Assembly (NCBI GenBank): GCA_009691845.1
Contig: SIAJ01000012.1
Coordinates: 1-64,000 of the forward strand
Direction: 5' to 3'
DNA length: 64,000 bases
From: Gemmataceae bacterium
GTDB lineage: Bacteria > Planctomycetota > Planctomycetia > Gemmatales > Gemmataceae
Position numbers and translations under genes: made by a program. Numbering within the stretch: position 1 is the first letter of the stretch; every line of letters begins with the position of its first letter. Of the stretch, positions 17,121 to 53,915 are shown one piece after another. Under the pieces are notes generated by a model that ran no database searches, was not told the DNA's origin, and worked only from the letters and a program-made list of their open reading frames with translations.

Positions 17121-18350
17121 GTGCCCCAGGATATTCAATCTTTTACTCTGTCGAACGGCCTGACTCTCCTGACCGAGCGAATGCCGCACGTCCGCTCGAC
17201 CTCATTCAATATTCTGCTTCCCGCTGGGGCCGCCCACGACCCTGATGGCCGTCAGGGCCTGGCTTCGCTCGTCTGCGATCTGATGACGCGTGGGGCAGGC
17301 TCACGCGACAATCGCGAATTGACAGACGCGTTGGATAACCTGGGCGTGGATCGCGGCGAGAGTTCCGGCACGCTGAACGTGCAGCTTTCAGGTGCGATGT
17401 TATCGCGGAATTTGGTGCCTACTTTTGAGATCTACGCGGACATCCTGCGTCGCCCGCATCTGCCCGAGGATGAACTCGACGCGGCCAAGTCGCTCAGCAT
17501 TCAGGACATTCAGTCGCTTGAAGACGATCCGCAGCGAAAAGTCATGGTCGAACTTCGCAAGCGGTATTACCCCGATCCCCTCGGTCGCGATCAACGGGGT
17601 ACGATCGAAGGCGTCGAAGCAGTCACGATCGAGGATGTACGCCGGCAACATGCCGAGCTGTACCATCCCCGCGATGTGATCTTGTCGGTGGCCGGGGAAC
17701 TTGACCCCGAGGCCGTAAAGAAAGAAGTCGAGCGATTGTTCGGCGACTGGAAGCCGCTGCCGCGACCGCCGATGCGAGTGGCCACACATGTCCCGACCTC
17801 CGGACATATCGAGAAAGAACTCGACCAAACACAAATATCGCTGGCATTTCCGAGCGTGCCGATCGGCCATCCGGATTTTTACAACGTGCGTGGTGCCATC
17901 GGCGTGCTGTCGCAAGATATGAGTTCGCGGTTGTTCACGAATGTTCGCGAAAAACACGGGTTGTGTTACTCGGTTTATGCCAGCTACGAATCGTTCCGCG
18001 ACCGAGCCACGATTATCGGCTATGCAGGTGCCCGGCCCGAGTTGGCCCAGGAAACGCTCGATCGAACGCTCGAGGAGTTTCGCAATCTCGTGAACGGTAT
18101 CGAGGAGGAAGAACTCGATCGCGTGAAGATTGGCCTGAAGTCCTCGCTGATTATGCGACAAGAATCGACGGCCGCGAGGGCAGGTTCGATCGCGTCCGAC
18201 TGGTACTTCCTGGGCCGCGTCCGTTCGCTGGAAGAGATTCAAGCCTCAATTGACGGCCTGCAAGTTGAGAAGATTCTCGATTATCTGCGACGAAACCCGG
18301 CCAAGGATTTTACGGTGGTGACTCTGGGGCCGGCGGCATTGAAGCATTGA
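17121..18350 (+). CDS. M16-family peptidase homologue, catalytic motif lost
   Basis: A 409-residue insulinase-like protein. The N-terminal M16 fold is clear (LSNGLTLLTERMPHVRSTSFNILLPAGAAHDP), but where the zinc motif HxxEH should be it reads GLASLVCDLMTRGAG, so it cannot bind zinc in the usual way. The C-terminal half (SLAFPSVPIGHPDFYNVRGAIGVLSQDMSSRLFTNVREKHGLCYSVYA) is the typical M16_C domain with its conserved R-x-x-x-G-L-x-Y segment. It is followed 23 bp later by a paralogue that keeps HxxEH, so the two probably form a heterodimer, as known for bacterial and mitochondrial M16B pairs. Start is GTG. Confidence 0.9.
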   Translation: MPQDIQSFTLSNGLTLLTERMPHVRSTSFNILLPAGAAHDPDGRQGLASLVCDLMTRGAGSRDNRELTDALDNLGVDRGESSGTLNVQLSGAMLSRNLVPTFEIYADILRRPHLPEDELDAAKSLSIQDIQSLEDDPQRKVMVELRKRYYPDPLGRDQRGTIEGVEAVTIEDVRRQHAELYHPRDVILSVAGELDPEAVKKEVERLFGDWKPLPRPPMRVATHVPTSGHIEKELDQTQISLAFPSVPIGHPDFYNVRGAIGVLSQDMSSRLFTNVREKHGLCYSVYASYESFRDRATIIGYAGARPELAQETLDRTLEEFRNLVNGIEEEELDRVKIGLKSSLIMRQESTAARAGSIASDWYFLGRVRSLEEIQASIDGLQVEKILDYLRRNPAKDFTVVTLGPAALKH

Positions 18351-18373
18351 TCATCTACCTCACTCATTAAACC

Positions 18374-19612
18374 ATGACGTTCCATCAACACACGCTTCCG
18401 AATGGCCTGACGATCCTGGGCGAGACGAACCCGGCAGCCTTGTCCGTGGCCGTCGCGTTCTGGGTGAAGACCGGCGCACGCGACGAGACCCCGGACGTGT
18501 GCGGTGTCTCGCACTTCCTGGAACACATGGTCTTCAAGGGGACTCCGCGTCGCGACGCCTTTGCCGTCAACCGCGATTTCTCCCGCATCGGTGCGGATAA
18601 CAACGCCTGGACTTCCGAAGAAAACACGGTCTTTCACGCAGTCGTGCTGCCAGAGTTCCTGCCGCATGTCGTCGATGTGCTGGCGGACATCATGCGACCA
18701 AGCTTGCGTGGCGAGGATTTCGCAACCGAGAAGAAAGTCATTCTCGACGAGATCGTTCGCTATGAGGTGCAGCCGGGCTGGGCATCCTACGACTTGGCCC
18801 GCAAGAACTTCTATGCCAGCCATCCCTTGGGCAACTCGATCCTCGGCACCTCCGAGAGCATCAACGCTCTCACACGCGATCAGATGGAGGGCTACTTCCG
18901 CAAGCGTTATCTGGCCTCGAATATCGTGGCCGTCGCCTCGGGAAACTTTGACTTCAAACGCTTCGTCGATCTGGTCGGTAACGCCTGTTCGGACTGGCCT
19001 ACTGGAGAAGTATCGCGGACCAACCGAACCGAGCCGCCCGGCGCAGGAGGCATGCACCTCGTCACCAAGCCGGCCGACAAGGTGGCCCAGGAATACGTGA
19101 CCCTGATCGCGCCAGCCGCACCGGCCGATCACGAACTCGGCTACGCGGGCTCGCTTCTGGCGACCGTGATGGGAGATTACACCGGTAGCCGCATGTTCTG
19201 GTCACTGATCGACCCCGGCCTGGTGGATGAAGCGGGCATGGGCATCGACGAGTGCGATGGGGCAGGTGCCTACTACACCTCGTTCAATTCCGATCCCGAG
19301 CATGCCGAGGAATGCTTCAAGATCGTACGCGAACTTCTGGACGACGTGCAGGCAAATGGCATCACGCCGGAAGAGTTTCTGCAAGCGAAGACCAAGATCC
19401 TCTCGAGGGAAATTCGTGCCGGCGAGCGCAGCGCCCGCCGCATGTTCACGATTGCGAAGGACTGGGTTTATCGCGGCGGATACCGCAGCGTGGACGACGA
19501 ACTCGCCGCCTGGGACGCGGTGACGATGAAAGACGTGCGTGCCGTGCTCGATCGGTATCCGCTGAGCAATCAGACGGTGTCGGCATATGGGCCGCTCGAA
19601 AAACTATCCTAA
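18374..19612 (+). CDS. M16-family zinc peptidase, active subunit
   Basis: 412 residues. The inverted zinc motif HxxEH is intact in VSHFLEHMVFKGTPRR, and the downstream Glu is present in NAWTSEENTVFHAVVLPEF. M16_C follows (EYVTLIAPAAPADHELGYAGSLLATVMGDYTGSRMFWSLIDPGLVDEAGM). It degrades peptides or processes proteins, probably cytoplasmic since no signal peptide is seen. It pairs with the motif-less homologue directly upstream on the same transcript. The gene ends 8 bp before a paired hairpin repeat. Confidence 0.92.
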   Translation: MTFHQHTLPNGLTILGETNPAALSVAVAFWVKTGARDETPDVCGVSHFLEHMVFKGTPRRDAFAVNRDFSRIGADNNAWTSEENTVFHAVVLPEFLPHVVDVLADIMRPSLRGEDFATEKKVILDEIVRYEVQPGWASYDLARKNFYASHPLGNSILGTSESINALTRDQMEGYFRKRYLASNIVAVASGNFDFKRFVDLVGNACSDWPTGEVSRTNRTEPPGAGGMHLVTKPADKVAQEYVTLIAPAAPADHELGYAGSLLATVMGDYTGSRMFWSLIDPGLVDEAGMGIDECDGAGAYYTSFNSDPEHAEECFKIVRELLDDVQANGITPEEFLQAKTKILSREIRAGERSARRMFTIAKDWVYRGGYRSVDDELAAWDAVTMKDVRAVLDRYPLSNQTVSAYGPLEKLS

Positions 19613-22588: not shown

Positions 22589-24148
22589 TCAGTCCCGTTT
22601 GGTCTTTCCTTTGTACTTCGTCGTGGCCTTCTTTTCTTCCTTGTGCTCCGGTGGCGTGGGCGTGCTTGAGGAGGCAAACCAGTTCGTCATGTAGCCGATG
22701 AGCAGGATCACGGCCGAGACGTGGAGGCACAAGCCAGCCACAATCCAGACCATGTTCTTGCCGGTGGCCTTCGCTTTCGGCCGCGTTGCCAGCGGTGCGT
22801 TGGCGCCCATTGCGGAGTGCTCGAACGTATCGAGGTGCCCATCATCGTGTGCGTGATGTTCGTCAAGCGGATGAATCTCCGGCAGCAGCCCCGCGTGCTT
22901 CGCCAACGAAGTCGAGGACATCGGTTCTACTAACGGCATATCGCTCGACTGCGGAATCTCTTCCGCGAATGGGTCGTCGTCCTCGTGGGTCGGTTGATCC
23001 AGGTTGCGAGCCACTGGCACCGCGTTGGGCACGTCATCTGGCGTGAACGCCTCGTGGGCCAGGAGAATATCTTGCGGGACGGGTGCGGCCAATCGCTCGC
23101 AGTACGGCAGCAACGTAGTCACCACATCGGATGCGGAGGGACGCGAGTATGGGTTGCTGTCGAGAAGGCGACCGACCAATTGAGCAACCTTGGACGGCAC
23201 ACCGGACTTGATACTTTCGAGCGGAGCCGGCTGGCCTTGCTGAATGTCGAGCATCACTTCCAGGTTGGAGTCCCCCGAATGGGGAGGTCGCGTTGTCAGC
23301 AGGAAATACAACGAGCCGCCCAGCCCGTACAAATCGCCTGGCTGCGTGCGTTCACCGTCGGTCATTCGTTCCGGCGGAAGGAACCCGAGCGTGCCGAGTC
23401 GATCCGATTCGCCGAAGGTGAGTTCGCCGATCGCGGGCCTCTTCGGAGCCAATCCGAACTCGGCCAATTTGACGGACGCACCAGGCCATGGCCGGATCGA
23501 GACGTCGCCGTTCGTCCCCGCAACGCGTTTCACGGGTGTTAGCAGCAAGTTGTGCGGCGTAACATCGCCGTGAGCCACACCTTTTTCATGTGCGGCTTGC
23601 ACTGCCAATGCAGCCTGGCGAATGTATTCACACGCCAAGCCCAACGGCAAAGCCCCCATCTCGTTGACCATGCGGAACAGGTCGCAGCCGTCCACGAATT
23701 CATGCACCACAAACGGGCCGCTATCGAGAGTCCCACCATCGAGCAGGTTCGCCAGGTGTGGACTTTGGGCCAGGCTGGCCGCCTGAGTTCGTGTCACATA
23801 CGCGGAAATTGAATCGGCAGGACTCAGCCACTCGCCACGCAAGAGCCGAATGGAGACGGGCTGTCGCAACGCGGGGTGGAGAGCCTTATAGTGCGTTCCG
23901 AACGCCCCTTCTTCGATCTTGTCGAAGATGCGATAGCCGGCAATGTTGAGACGATCGCCACGCCCTGCGATCAATTCCGTGGACTGATAAGGCGTGAGCC
24001 AACCACGATCCTGTGCATACTTGGCCAGAGAATCGACATCGCTCCAGAGTGCCTCCGGCCGGGCTTGAAGCTCTGCAATGGAGGGTTCGTCCAACAATTG
24101 GCTGGAGCGAATACCGTCTAAAAATTGGCTCGCGGAGAGTTGGGACAT
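22589..24148 (-). CDS. Membrane-anchored Ser/Thr kinase-like protein with degenerate active site
   Basis: 519 residues counting from the ATG at 24148 (a TTG six codons upstream is possible). A short N-terminal helical region is followed by a kinase fold from about residue 70. Key residues differ from active kinases: the VAIK lysine is Arg101 (PVSIRLL), HRD reads HGDVTPHN (Asp195 and Asn200 kept, the usual Lys is Thr197), and DFG reads AEFG (Glu230). The activation-segment end LGFLPPERM and the GDLYGLGGSLYFLLT helix are normal. The acidic/His linker leads to one transmembrane helix (MVWIVAGLCLHVSAVILLIGY) and a Lys-rich tail. It may be a pseudokinase or a very weak kinase. The isomerase gene follows by 9 bp. 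Confidence 0.88.
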   Translation of the reverse strand: MSQLSASQFLDGIRSSQLLDEPSIAELQARPEALWSDVDSLAKYAQDRGWLTPYQSTELIAGRGDRLNIAGYRIFDKIEEGAFGTHYKALHPALRQPVSIRLLRGEWLSPADSISAYVTRTQAASLAQSPHLANLLDGGTLDSGPFVVHEFVDGCDLFRMVNEMGALPLGLACEYIRQAALAVQAAHEKGVAHGDVTPHNLLLTPVKRVAGTNGDVSIRPWPGASVKLAEFGLAPKRPAIGELTFGESDRLGTLGFLPPERMTDGERTQPGDLYGLGGSLYFLLTTRPPHSGDSNLEVMLDIQQGQPAPLESIKSGVPSKVAQLVGRLLDSNPYSRPSASDVVTTLLPYCERLAAPVPQDILLAHEAFTPDDVPNAVPVARNLDQPTHEDDDPFAEEIPQSSDMPLVEPMSSTSLAKHAGLLPEIHPLDEHHAHDDGHLDTFEHSAMGANAPLATRPKAKATGKNMVWIVAGLCLHVSAVILLIGYMTNWFASSSTPTPPEHKEEKKATTKYKGKTKRD

Positions 24149-24234
24149 CGGCGTCTGGTCGCTCAACGGCGAGGGTGGGAGGGCGGTGCGAAACTATTCT
24201 ACAAGTCACGGGCCAGAGTTCGAGGGTTCGTGAT

Positions 24235-26084: not shown

Positions 26085-26579
26085 GTGACTGAAATCGGCC
26101 TTTTTCTACGGAGATTTGAGTTGTTTCTCACCTTGCGCACGCTGTTCTTCAGCGTCCCCGCTCTCATCGTGCTCATCGGCGGCTACTTCGTCTCCCCAGA
26201 AGGTCGGACACTCGATGAAACGCTCGAACCCGGCAGCTCTTCCATGTTGTCGAACGAATGGCCTTCAAATAAGGACGAAGATTTGGTTCGTTGCGTGGCA
26301 ATCAAGCATGAGACGATCCTCGATCTTCTCGAAGGTCGCCTGACGTTCGAAGAGGCTATCGATCGTTTCCGCCTGAACTCGACTACGAATCCGGCGGGTG
26401 CAAATGAAGCGGATGCCCGATTTATACAGCAAGTAATCTCCTTTGCTCGAGTCCATGCCGCACGAGACCCACGCCGGCATCAAACAGCCTGCTCCGAAAT
26501 CGAATCCGCCGCACGAACTCTGATTCGCTCGACCGAGAACGCGGGCCGGGATGATTCTGGCGTTCCGTTCGGGTCTTAA
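26085..26579 (+). CDS. Single-pass membrane protein with a planctomycete helix motif
   Basis: 164 residues. A hydrophobic segment near residues 18-35 (LRTLFFSVPALIVLIGGYFV) would anchor it. The soluble part contains IKHETILDLLEGRLTFEEAIDRFRLNS followed by ADARFIQQVISFARVHA. This layout (xxVIAGRLTLxEAAxxFRxLN, then a short VIxWVRA helix) recurs in many small planctomycete proteins of unknown role; that is from memory, not a search. The start is GTG at 26085, although a TTG about 11 codons in is possible. It precedes the cyclophilin gene on the same strand. Confidence 0.62.
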   Translation: MTEIGLFLRRFELFLTLRTLFFSVPALIVLIGGYFVSPEGRTLDETLEPGSSSMLSNEWPSNKDEDLVRCVAIKHETILDLLEGRLTFEEAIDRFRLNSTTNPAGANEADARFIQQVISFARVHAARDPRRHQTACSEIESAARTLIRSTENAGRDDSGVPFGS

Positions 26580-26715
26580 TTGTTGTTTTGACGTTTTTAT
26601 CCCACCTTTGGGCAAGAATCGCCCACGTTTCGTGTGTATAATTGGGGGTAGATCGGTGCCCCCTCTACCGGTATCGGACTCGCACTCCTTGCCGTTGTTT
26701 CACACGAGCTTTGCC

Positions 26716-28125
26716 ATGAATCGCTTCAGCCGTTTTTTCATCTCATCTCCCACGAAATCGGCTCGACAAAAGCGGCTCGCATTCGATTCGTTGGAGCTTC
26801 GCGAGACTCCAGCAGCACGTCTGGGATTGTTCTCCTCTCAGGTGAATTACATCCAGACCACCTTCAATGGTTCTTCTAATTTGATTCGGGTGCAGGTTCC
26901 TGCCGAAACGCCCAGCACGCCTCCCGTTGTGGTGCCACCTCCGGCCCTGCCGACGTTCGATCTCAACGCGGCCTCGGACACCGGCATCCTGGGCGATCAT
27001 GCTACTAGCCTTGTCAGTGTGACATTGAGCGGAACCACTTCGCCAAATACCACTGTCAAGCTCCTCCAAACGAACGCGACGGTACAGTCCGACACCCAGG
27101 GAATATTTTCCTTCACGGCCGTTCCGCTGGCAACCGCGAGCACAAGCTTCACCGTTCGGGCAACCGGACCAACTGGTGTTTCTCGATCGTCCTCGCAAAC
27201 GATCGTGAAAACCGCTGCACCTACAATTCTCTCGGCCCTGGCACCGGTTTCGCTGCCTGCTGGCGATTCCACTACGCTTGACCTTGCGGACAATTTCGAC
27301 GACGCGGACATCACCAATAGTCTTGTACGGCTGAATACTTCACTCGGTCCTGTTAACATCGAGTTGCTCGACCGGCAAGCTCCGCAAACCGTGGCGAATT
27401 TCTTCAACTATGTCGAAGACGGCAAGTACACGGACGCCATCTTCCATCGGTCGGCCAAACTTAGCGGCGGAACGCCGTTCGTGCTTCAAGGTGGCGGTTT
27501 CTCGTTCGAGACGAATCCTTCGTCCATCGCGGCCATCCCGACCGATCCAGCCGTGCAGAATGAGCCAGACGCGACAAATCGTTCCAACCTGCGTGGCACG
27601 GTCGCCATGGCGAAACTGGGTGGCAACCCGAATAGTGCCACCAACCAATTCTTCTTCAATCTTTCGGACAACGCGTCAATTCTCGACGGGCAGAACGGAG
27701 GATTCACCGTCTTCGCGCGGACGGCATCCCCCGCCGATCAGGCTATCGTGGATGAACTGGCGGCGATCCCGACCCAAAACCAAGGGTCGGCGGCAGCCCT
27801 CCCGGTAGCACAACAAGGAGTGTTCGGCGAAATCCCGCTGCGTAATTACACGGGCACCTCATTCCCGACGGATACGACGGCCACGAACTATGCCCTCATC
27901 ACGGGTGCCACGATTGTGCGCCGCACGGAAGAATTGACCTGGAGCGTAACGTCCAACACCAATGTGGCGGTCGCGACGCCGTCAATCGCCGATAACCGGC
28001 TAACGATCCAGGCCATCGCCGGGCAAACGGGCAGTGCGATGATCACCGTCCGCGCAACCGATCGTGCGGGCAACTTCGTTGAGTCCAACGTGACCGTGAA
28101 CGTTACCAGCACACCTCCTGATTGA
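26716..28125 (+). CDS. Exported peptidyl-prolyl isomerase (cyclophilin) with Ig-like domain
   Basis: 469 residues. The start at 26716 gives the exported-protein N-terminus common in planctomycetes (basic stretch, then LAFDSLELRETPAARLG, an LExRxTPA-type motif). Residues about 65-155 form an Ig-like strand repeat (TDLNAASDTGILGDH-like opening, SVTLSGTTSPNTTVKL, FTVRATGPTG). The cyclophilin domain covers about 195-385: VNIELLDRQAPQTVANFFNYVEDGKYTDAIFHR, LQGGGFSFE, RGTVAMAKLGGNPNSATNQFFFNLSDNASILDGQNGGFTVFAR. The F-H-R, Q-G-G and Q-F-F-F-N residues of the active site are present. A further beta domain closes it. It would assist folding outside the cytoplasm or at the cell surface. Confidence 0.9.
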   Translation: MNRFSRFFISSPTKSARQKRLAFDSLELRETPAARLGLFSSQVNYIQTTFNGSSNLIRVQVPAETPSTPPVVVPPPALPTFDLNAASDTGILGDHATSLVSVTLSGTTSPNTTVKLLQTNATVQSDTQGIFSFTAVPLATASTSFTVRATGPTGVSRSSSQTIVKTAAPTILSALAPVSLPAGDSTTLDLADNFDDADITNSLVRLNTSLGPVNIELLDRQAPQTVANFFNYVEDGKYTDAIFHRSAKLSGGTPFVLQGGGFSFETNPSSIAAIPTDPAVQNEPDATNRSNLRGTVAMAKLGGNPNSATNQFFFNLSDNASILDGQNGGFTVFARTASPADQAIVDELAAIPTQNQGSAAALPVAQQGVFGEIPLRNYTGTSFPTDTTATNYALITGATIVRRTEELTWSVTSNTNVAVATPSIADNRLTIQAIAGQTGSAMITVRATDRAGNFVESNVTVNVTSTPPD

Positions 28126-51097: not shown

Positions 51098-53311
51098 TTA
51101 TAGGGACTTGAGGATCGCCTGAAATCGCGGATGGCTGTGCAACGCATTCAAGTCGGAGTCGTGCTGGACCCACTTTTTGTGGGCGTAGCTGTGTTTGAGA
51201 GCACTTTCCAGACAATCAAGCCCCTTTTCGATCTGACTTTGTAGTGCATAAACACAGGCAACATTGTACAGCGTCACGGGTTCTTCAGGGTCCATCGCCA
51301 GAGCACGGCCCGCCCATTCGAGGCCCCGTTCCGTCTCCCCGGACATACACAGGACCACGGCACCCAGATACAGGGCACGAGCATCGTCCCGATGAAGTTC
51401 CAGATGCTGGGAGATCACATCCGTCGCACGTCGGCACGCGACCTGGGCGTCCGCCGCTCGGCCCAGGCCGCTGTAAATCGACACGAGGTGGGTGAGAGCC
51501 TGGTAATCGTCAGGATCCTGCTGACACGCTTGCTCGAATAGGATCGCCGCTTCCACGAGTTTACCCTGGACCAGGCATCTGCGTCCGTAAAAATAACGGG
51601 CAGCAAACAGGGTCGGGTCCAGGCGGATGGCGGTTTGGAACTCCCGTTCCGCCTCGGCAAAATTTTTCACGAGCGCGATGGCCATGCCACGCGCGACATG
51701 GGCCTCGGCCAGTTCCGCATCCAGTTCCAAGGCTTTGCGGCTCAGTTCGTCGGCCAGTTGGACGTTAACCGTACTGCGATCCCAGTTTTGGAACAACAGC
51801 GAATGGCAATCCGCGATGCCAGCGTAGGCCAGGGCATAGCCTGGATCAATCGCGATGGCCCGAGCAAACATCTCCTGGGCAAACTCAAATGCTTTACGGC
51901 GAAACTGATGAAAGTACTGCCGTCCGCGCAGGTAGCATTCATAGGCCTTGACATCGGTGGTCGTCGTCTTCTCAATGGCCCGTTTGTCCTTCTCGCTCAG
52001 GATCACCTGCAACGCTTTGGCGATGCTGAGAGCAATCTCGTCCTGGATGGCGAAGACGTCTTCCAGTTCGCGGTTGTAAGTCTCGGACCAGAGTTGATAT
52101 CCGTCGGTGACGTTCACGAGTTGGGCACTGATACGCAAACGGGCGCCGGACTTGCGGACACTTCCTTCAAGGACCGTAAGCACATTAAGTTGCTCGCCGA
52201 TCTTGCGAAAATCCTCATTCTTGCCTTTGAAGGCGAATGCCGATGTCCGCGACGTGACGCGCAAGCCCTCCACCTTGGCCAGAACATTGATGAGTTCTTC
52301 GGCGAGGCCGTCGCTGAAGAACTCATTCTCCGCGTCGGAACTCATGTTTCGGAACGGCAGAACCGCAAGCGACGGAGCGAGGGTTGGCTGTGCGGGCGGG
52401 TGGGACACTCCCAAATATACAGCCGTTTCAAGTTGTGGCTGAGTTCGGGTTGTCGCGGTCAGGGCGTGTTGGCCCAGACCCCGGAGGGCCTGGGCGAGTT
52501 CGTGGGCGTACTGAAAGCAGCGAGCGGGGTCCTTCTCGAGGCAGCGGCTGATCACGCGGTCCAACTTGGCCGGGCGATCCCGACCCGTCTGACTGAGTGC
52601 AGGAACCGGGTCGTTGAGAATTGCAGCCATCGTATCGGCAGTTGACTGACCGAGGAACGGACGACGGCCCACGAGCATTTCGTACAACACGCAGCCAAAC
52701 GCAAACAGATCGCTCCGGGCATCTGCCGAGTGCCCACGCACCTGCTCCGGAGACATGTACGCCACGGTGCCCAGTAGCAGACCCGGTTGGGTCTCCAGCA
52801 TCGGAAACCCGGCTTGTGGGGTCGCGTTCTGGGACTCCAGACGCGCGAGGCCGAAGTCAAGAATCTTCACCACGCCGTCCGTCGTGAGAAAGATGTTTTC
52901 TGGTTTGATATCGCGGTGGACGATCCCCTTGGAGTGTGCAACGGCCAGGCCATCGGCAATGGCCGTGGCAATTTCCACGGCTTTACGCTACTCCATGATC
53001 CCTTGTTTCATCCGGCTACCGAGGGTCTGGCCCTCCAGCAGTTCCATGACCGCAAACGTGACGCCCTAGTCCGTGCCGATGTCGTAGATGGCGAGAATAT
53101 TTGGATGGGACAAGGCCGCAACCGCTCGAACCTCGCGGTAAAAGCGAGCCAGGGCACTCGCGTCCTGGGAGAACCGCGCGGGCAGCACTTTAACAGCCAC
53201 GTCACGTTCCAGTCGTGCGTCCCTGGCTCGATAGACCTCGCCCATTCCTCCTGCGCCGAGCGAGGCCAAGATCTGATACGGGCCGAAGTGGCCATGAATT
53301 GCGAGGCTCAT
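51098..53311 (-). pseudogene. Ser/Thr protein kinase-TPR gene interrupted by two in-frame TAG codons
   Basis: Read through, this is a 737-residue protein. The kinase domain runs from the first residues: [17 protein letters not shown], then DVAVKVL (Lys), [13 protein letters not shown], then TAG (53066-53068), GVTFAVMELLEGQTL, TAG (52988-52990), [41 protein letters not shown] and [21 protein letters not shown]. All catalytic residues are present. It continues with a TolB/adenylate-cyclase-associated-like domain ([46 protein letters not shown]) and C-terminal TPRs. No transmembrane helix is obvious. The frame is otherwise undamaged, so the stops are recent, sequence errors, or suppressed. Translation restarting after the second stop would lack the ATP-binding lobe. 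Confidence 0.85.
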
Positions 53312-53915
53312 CGTTGTTTGCGCTAAAGCGAACCGTTAAATTTTGAGGGGTATCGAAAATTCCGGCGAGCCTGCAAAGTCGTGAGGCTTATCTCAATTCG
53401 ATCGACGTTCCCAATTGCGGGATGGGGTGGCGACGCCCCGGAATGACAATTTTCCGAATTGGTATCTGCACCCGAGAGTAACTCGCACGACAACGGCATT
53501 GGATGGCGGTCTCGGGCTACCGGCCGAGGCGAGTGCGATCACATTCGTGTATTGCACGTGCGGATTGGACCGGTCCGGGAGGTTGTGGCGATCCCGTTGC
53601 CCGCGTTGGGAGTGGACGGGAGGGCGAGGCCACTGCTGCGAACATCTTCCCCGGTAGCCTTCGGGCGTCGGTGGTTCTCCAGAATCCGAGAGACTGAGGT
53701 TTGAGCCCCAGACTTTTTCGCTGGCTCGGCTTTGGGACGTGGCTTCTTGTTGACCGCCTCGCATCAGAGAGGATGTCGCAGGCCGGTCAATCGGTCGCGC
53801 ATCTGCTGGATCGCGCGCCGGTGGAATCAAGGCCGCGAGGTCCAGGAGGCGAGTCACGTCGAACCTGCGGACGATTCTACGGCAAGGTCCATTGAACAGG
53901 CCCAGCCTTGCAAAC
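53312..53915. other. Intergenic, no gene called
   Basis: About 600 bp between the kinase pseudogene and the caspase-like gene. Long overlapping open frames exist on both strands, but none has a ribosome-binding site, signal or recognisable motif, and they look like GC-driven chance frames. The promoter of the kinase gene should be near 53320-53400. Confidence 0.45.

Follow-up and report, generated by a model that had tools for sequence, protein, structure and literature searches.

A putative membrane-anchored pseudokinase conserved in part of the Gemmataceae and encoded beside an IolI-like sugar isomerase

The locus and its gene products

The DNA analysed here, referred to as the window, is a stretch of 64,000 nucleotides from a Gemmataceae bacterium (contig SIAJ01000012.1, positions 1 to 64,000). 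Its reverse strand carries a gene for a kinase-like protein, followed directly by a gene for a sugar isomerase (Table 1). The two are separated by 9 nt between stop and start, the distance given in the initial annotation. In the window translation the kinase-like frame is intact, beginning with ATG at 24148 and ending with a stop codon at 22589, and an alternative TTG start at 24166 would yield a protein of 525 aa. The promoter scan found none (1.2 expected), and 8 terminator-like sites were seen against 5.0 expected.

Table 1. Coordinates of the pseudokinase gene, its sites and the neighbouring isomerase gene in the window
Feature	Position	Strand	Basis or conservation
Pseudokinase gene	22589..24148	-	519 aa; open frame and translation; PF00069, 85 bits
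N-terminal helical region, residues 1-65, preceding the kinase lobe	23954..24148	-	AlphaFold2 helices
Kinase-fold domain, residues 72-350	23099..23935	-	Pfam 72-344; pLDDT mostly >90; PknA 4ow8 match
R101, beta3 Lys site	23846..23848	-	Arg 39/41 orthologues; Lys 40/40 active kinases
R120, alphaC Glu site	23789..23791	-	Arg 40/41 orthologues; Glu 38/40 active kinases
G194-D195 of HGD, HRD site	23564..23569	-	Gly 40/41; Asp 21/41
Residues 205-220, catalytic loop to DFG, clade-specific insertion (G214, R219, P220)	23489..23536	-	
E230 of EFG, DFG site	23459..23461	-	Glu 31, Asp 7, Gly 3 of 41
C-terminal membrane helix, residues 462-487, then Lys-rich tail	22688..22765	-	AlphaFold2 helix, hydropathy
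IolI-like TIM-barrel sugar isomerase/epimerase gene, 268 aa	21773..22579	-	PF01261, 112 bits; 9 nt downstream

The protein has a Hanks-type Ser/Thr kinase fold, as judged from the Pkinase profile match (PF00069, E 7.5e-24), the two-lobed predicted fold and the structural residues, which are also conserved among the orthologues described below: the APE Glu in 38/41, the F-helix Asp in 40/41 and the I-helix Arg in 40/41. AlphaFold2, drawing on 34 orthologues, predicts N-terminal helices at residues 6-16, 21-29, 38-47 and 53-60 (block pLDDT 78-97) and gives pLDDT above 90 across most of residues 1-350, which include both these helices and the kinase lobes. The best match of this model among solved structures is PknA (4ow8; Z 29.4, rmsd 2.5, 264 residues aligned), which agrees with the earlier description of a fold that is otherwise well kept. 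A low-confidence linker leads from the kinase lobes to a single C-terminal helix, whose hydrophobicity is sufficient for a membrane anchor according to AlphaFold2 and hydropathy. The C-terminal hydropathy peak recurs in 38 of the 41 orthologues, the three without it (L100, L195 and L206) all having broken, cut or seemingly frameshifted sequences.

Several kinase motifs are altered in this protein. The VAIK site reads VSIR (R101), HRD reads HGD (G194, with D195 kept) and DFG reads EFG (E230), so that the initial annotation correctly described a membrane-anchored kinase with Lys, HRD Arg and DFG Asp replaced. Further changes, absent from that annotation, are the replacement of the alphaC Glu by R120, of the HRD+2 Lys by T197 and of the first glycine of the glycine loop by Glu, together with PPE in place of APE. 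N200, like D195, is retained.

Other genes of the window were also recorded. A second kinase gene at 51098-53539 (-) has two in-frame TAG codons inside its kinase domain, while VAVK, HRD and DFG are intact, and the region after this domain is TPR-like by eye. This gene is either decaying or misassembled, a pattern opposite to that of the pseudokinase. On the forward strand, 26551-28125 encodes a bacterial Ig-like domain followed by a cyclophilin domain, and 17121-19612 holds two adjoining M16 peptidase genes, the first with a weak match of its N-terminal domain.

Distribution of the pseudokinase in the family

Orthologues occur in 41 of 95 Gemmataceae genomes and in 13 of 39 genus codes, and the idea that the substitutions are confined to the window copy was rejected on this basis. 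A profile search that scored 16 candidates per genome returned one match each in 40 of the 95 genomes, all of at least 353.9 bits, the next best match of any kind reaching 293. The remaining orthologue, L159 (G118), was found by its position; it matches weakly and deviates at beta3, alphaC and HRD. Incomplete members entered the set as follows: L100 (G032), with a broken frame, is counted for its N-terminal part only; L195 (G104) is cut by a contig end, its placement before the isomerase being taken from the C-terminal fragment L133; and L206 (G115) has an apparent frameshift near its end. A 24-bit fragment, L149 (G060), was left out of the counts.

No match at E 1e-85 was found outside the Gemmataceae in a search of 102 genomes of the order, just 7 of which lie outside the family. 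Among 31 genomes that belong to the same class but to different families, the best matches to the single pseudokinase protein range from 1e-24 to 1e-38. A scan of genome contigs with the same protein revealed three remote loci, L061, L062 and L063; the first two entered some of the alignments and the third none.

Conservation of the altered active site

Motif counts over the 41 sequences derive from one MAFFT alignment, and lone deviating cells in them may for this reason be misalignments. The active kinases used for comparison (n=40) were chosen non-randomly, by similarity to the pseudokinase, with 25 from the same genome and 15 from elsewhere and with L062 removed from their counts. They have the beta3 Lys in 40, the alphaC Glu in 38, the HRD Arg in 39, the catalytic Asp in 40, the Asn in 40 and the DFG Asp in 40. 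The genome of the window has 41 Pkinase matches in all, the pseudokinase included; the other 40 keep the catalytic Asp in 39 cases and show the beta3 Lys in 35, the remaining five being truncated or poorly aligned and one of them, L219, degenerate.

The initial annotation had proposed an alignment with orthologues as the means of distinguishing a conserved pseudokinase from a decaying copy with canonical relatives. This alignment supports conservation: Arg occupies the beta3 site in 39, Arg the alphaC site in 40 and Gly the place of the HRD Arg in 40 of the 41 sequences. Both arginines occur together in 39/41. Neither the beta3 Lys nor the complete Lys-Asp-Asp set is found in any of the 41, which classifies the family as pseudokinases by sequence. 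Because identical changes recur in 41 genomes, they are not due to chance.

Decay of the gene would by itself fit the loss of motifs and the dN/dS values near 1 in some distant pairs, but it is argued against by the conservation of the replacements as specific residues (beta3 Arg, alphaC Arg and Gly after His), by the intact frame and by the maintenance of the C-terminal helix and overall architecture. The 41 relatives with common substitutions already make decay hard to hold, and it was rejected as an explanation of the window copy, with next to no probability left to it. In the closest orthologue pair (G100/G101) dN/dS is 0.096 (NG86). The other pairs listed, which are the first 25 by dS among those below 2.5, range from 0.35 to 1.1, several lying near 1 with synonymous sites probably saturated, and the values are informative for the closest pair only. 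Since drift is not expected to fix identical unusual residues, the different pocket has probably been kept by selection in the pseudokinase clade, to judge from these sequences.

The remaining catalytic residues are less uniform. HG is present in 39/41 orthologues and HG[D/E] in 34/41; the catalytic Asp persists in 21/41 and is replaced by Glu in 13, the HRD+2 Lys is found in 0/41, and the catalytic-loop Asn is kept in 14/41. The DFG Gly is present in all 41, while the DFG Asp is gone in 34/41. HG instead of HR need not by itself mark a dead kinase. For this reason, and since D195 and the Asp of 21/41 orthologues are retained, the case for a pseudokinase rests on the beta3, alphaC and DFG sites and not on HRD.

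The retained residues could also indicate a kinase that is atypical or has weak activity, or a different kind of transferase, in place of a dead enzyme. Besides D195 and N200 the window copy has an acidic residue at the DFG site, a combination shared by 12/41 orthologues, itself among them, and WNK, which is without the usual Lys, can be active according to a 2025 review (PMC12599244). The absence of the catalytic Asp from 20/41 orthologues and of the Asn from 27/41, as well as the lack of a single Lys-Asp-Asp set, makes such activity very unlikely for the family.

The pocket of the pseudokinase looks remodelled, not randomly filled. Beyond the nearly invariant R101 and R120, an acid is present at the DFG site ([E/D]xG) in 38/41 orthologues, and acid and both arginines are combined in 37/41. 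In addition, the beta2 Val is Ala in 31/41 and the beta3 Ala is Val in 31/41, two positions that we take to be kinase spine residues. Columns 214, 219 and 220 of the alignment are occupied in 40/41 pseudokinases and empty in 31/40 active kinases.

This pattern is also what would be expected of a membrane sensor whose pocket still binds a ligand, either through altered ATP binding or by holding an anion such as a phosphorylated metabolite, with the Arg pair in place of Lys-Glu. The near-invariant arginines, the DFG-site acid and the spine replacements are consistent with such a sensor, as are the bacterial families with a beta3 Arg that have been modelled with ATP, as the review describes (PMC12599244). 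It is weakened by the altered glycine loop (second Gly replaced by Cys in 28/41) and by the frequent loss of the Asn and of the DFG Asp, and sensing of this kind is a possible, secondary explanation.

Linkage to the isomerase gene

The neighbouring gene product shares its fold with IolI of Bacillus subtilis (1i60; Z 36.3, 25% identity), its best match among solved structures. It is present, with one match each, in 82/95 genomes of the family. Residues E138, D169, Q195 and E241, presumably those of the metal site, are kept in 38, 39, 38 and 39 of the 39 sequences (of 82) aligned for the fold.

The pseudokinase gene lies directly upstream of the isomerase gene on the same strand in 34/41 genomes and 11 genus codes, the G104 pair being deduced from the C-terminal piece that lies on the contig with the isomerase. 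The gap is at most 30 nt in 29 of these 34 loci, 9 of which overlap. Setting aside frames that overlap the two genes, no flanking gene family occurs in more than 9 of the 34 loci; the stretches compared reach at most 4 kb before the isomerase and 2.5 kb beyond it. The pseudokinase is encoded away from the isomerase in 7/41 genomes, and no pseudokinase was found in 41 of the 82 genomes with the isomerase, so neither gene strictly needs the other. On an isomerase tree built by a quick method, the presence of the pseudokinase requires 7 changes, 3 of them forced by well-supported branches, for a group without it, which implies that the pseudokinase was lost, gained or moved several times.

The linkage might reflect shared transcription only, with the pseudokinase serving other proteins, for example as a dimer partner or decoy of an active kinase. 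The 7 separate copies are compatible with this arrangement, as are the other upstream neighbours of the isomerase in other genera and the abundance of potential kinase partners among the 41 Pkinase matches of the genome. The tight spacing, preserved in 11 genus codes despite turnover of the other neighbours, argues in the opposite direction, together with a canonical kinase at the same place in genome G009, and shared transcription as the whole account seems rather unlikely.

Other arrangements around these genes were noted as well. In 11 genomes without the pseudokinase (L161-L166, L169-L173), a molybdopterin oxidoreductase gene precedes the isomerase, with an overlap of 4 nt or a gap of at most 18 nt (assigned by Pfam on two). 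In L120, L126, L132, L136 and L150, from two genera, a canonical-type kinase frame of another kinase clade lies upstream on the opposite strand, with 185-337 nt between its end and the isomerase. The frame after the pseudokinase in G005 (L034 3350-4000 (+)) resembles endonuclease IV by eye; endonuclease IV and the isomerase belong to the same TIM-barrel superfamily. A release factor-like gene (by eye) and a dual-specificity phosphatase gene (assigned by Pfam for L148 only) form a pair in L034, L129, L148, L153 and L222. In G005 and G001 this pair lies upstream of the pseudokinase, and in G034 and G051 it immediately precedes the isomerase. In the genome of the window this pair is on another contig, and a link of the phosphatase to the pseudokinase was set aside since the pair is absent from the window.

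Probable origin from an active kinase

With the motif columns removed, a single branch separates 29 pseudokinases from 30 active kinases (100/100); five closely related pseudokinases and seven later additions are outside this tree. In a second tree, built with 12 of the 41 pseudokinases and a distant-kinase outgroup that is not one clean side, all 12 together form the sister group of the canonical G009 kinase (97/93). Support values are rough in both trees, the bootstrap being not fully settled.

Active Gemmataceae Ser/Thr kinases, chiefly that of G009 (L043, L155), have the kinase fold and sequence kinship in common with the pseudokinase. The G009 gene occupies the same place before the isomerase, overlapping its start by 4 nt. 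Its product differs in being fully canonical (K, E, HRD, N, D) and in its C-terminal WD40 repeats. It is also the sole one of the 40 active kinases with Arg directly after the beta3 site, where Arg or Lys is found in 37/41 pseudokinases. As this canonical sister stands in the same position, the isomerase linkage is probably older than the loss of catalysis, as far as the sequences indicate. The simplest history is that an active kinase already preceded the isomerase and that phosphotransfer was then lost in the lineage of the window.

Proposed function

The explanation preferred here, with about an even chance of being right, is that the protein is a conserved membrane-anchored pseudokinase that acts by binding, as the initial annotation had suggested, and most likely as a partner of the isomerase. 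Holding or sensing, as opposed to phosphorylating, is probable because replaced catalytic parts are kept across part of the family and the isomerase gene adjoins. The ancestor would have been an active Ser/Thr kinase, its gene probably already directly upstream of the IolI-like isomerase gene. Phosphotransfer would then have been lost along with the beta3 Lys and the alphaC Glu, and mostly also the metal-binding Asp and the Asn, while the fold and the structural residues of alphaF and alphaI were kept and the pocket acquired a new charge pattern. Anchored in the membrane by its one C-terminal helix, the pseudokinase would most likely serve the neighbouring isomerase as a scaffold or an allosteric partner, positioning or tuning it. 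This action is perhaps set by the occupant of the altered pocket, in which, judging from sequence, the acid at the DFG site could pair with R101 and R120.

A more specific version is speculative and put forward with considerable doubt. In it, the change from Lys-Glu to Arg-Arg creates a pocket for an anionic metabolite, through which the membrane-held pseudokinase, having lost phosphotransfer, tunes or tethers the isomerase. If this were true, the canonical G009 kinase would mirror to this day the ancestral state, in which the protein still phosphorylated. Little work has been done on bacterial pseudokinases, and a likely partner gene together with a canonical relative in the same position would make the transition from kinase to noncatalytic partner, and the ligand of the pocket, directly testable on two small genes.

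Comparison with known bacterial pseudokinases

Bacterial pseudokinase families are already known, the 2025 review (PMC12599244) listing ActPs1-3, GLW, CP1, DYD and DLHK as established. No description of a Gemmataceae pseudokinase was found in the literature searched, but the primary atlas behind this review, which the search did not bring up, may contain one. Papers on planctomycetes and pseudokinases, judged by title and opening of the abstract, gave nothing on such a family, and the review makes no mention of planctomycetes. Compared by the descriptions in this review, the Gemmataceae pseudokinase has single features of the DYD and ActPs2 families without their defining motifs.

The DYD pseudokinases, reported from Actinobacteria and Firmicutes in the review, are likewise membrane-associated, with the beta3 Lys replaced by Arg and the alphaC Glu absent, and their beta3 Arg is said there to pair with an acid (PMC12599244). 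The Gemmataceae protein shares the beta3 Arg without the alphaC Glu (R101, R120). It differs from the DYD family as described there in belonging to another phylum, in having specifically Arg at the alphaC Glu site and in its adjoining isomerase gene (PMC12599244), and it has EFG in the window copy and [E/D]xG in 38/41 orthologues in place of Asp-Tyr-Asp.

ActPs2 also has a conserved beta3 Arg, and its ATP model places two arginines at the phosphates; unlike the Gemmataceae pseudokinase, it is described in the review as carrying Asn where HRD has its Asp and, for the most part, as having a deletion in DFG (PMC12599244). Among the Gemmataceae orthologues, HG[D/E] and the DFG Gly instead predominate, in the numbers given above.

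A functional likeness is offered by ActPs3/MviN, which the review presents as membrane-linked, non-catalytic and acting as a scaffold by recruitment (PMC12599244). Its residue signature is different, with aromatic residues occupying the MviN pocket and a deletion in the activation loop (PMC12599244). ActPs3/MviN is marked by this deletion together with degradation of all motifs; in a comparison that covers the motifs, the Gemmataceae pseudokinase keeps HG and the DFG Gly.
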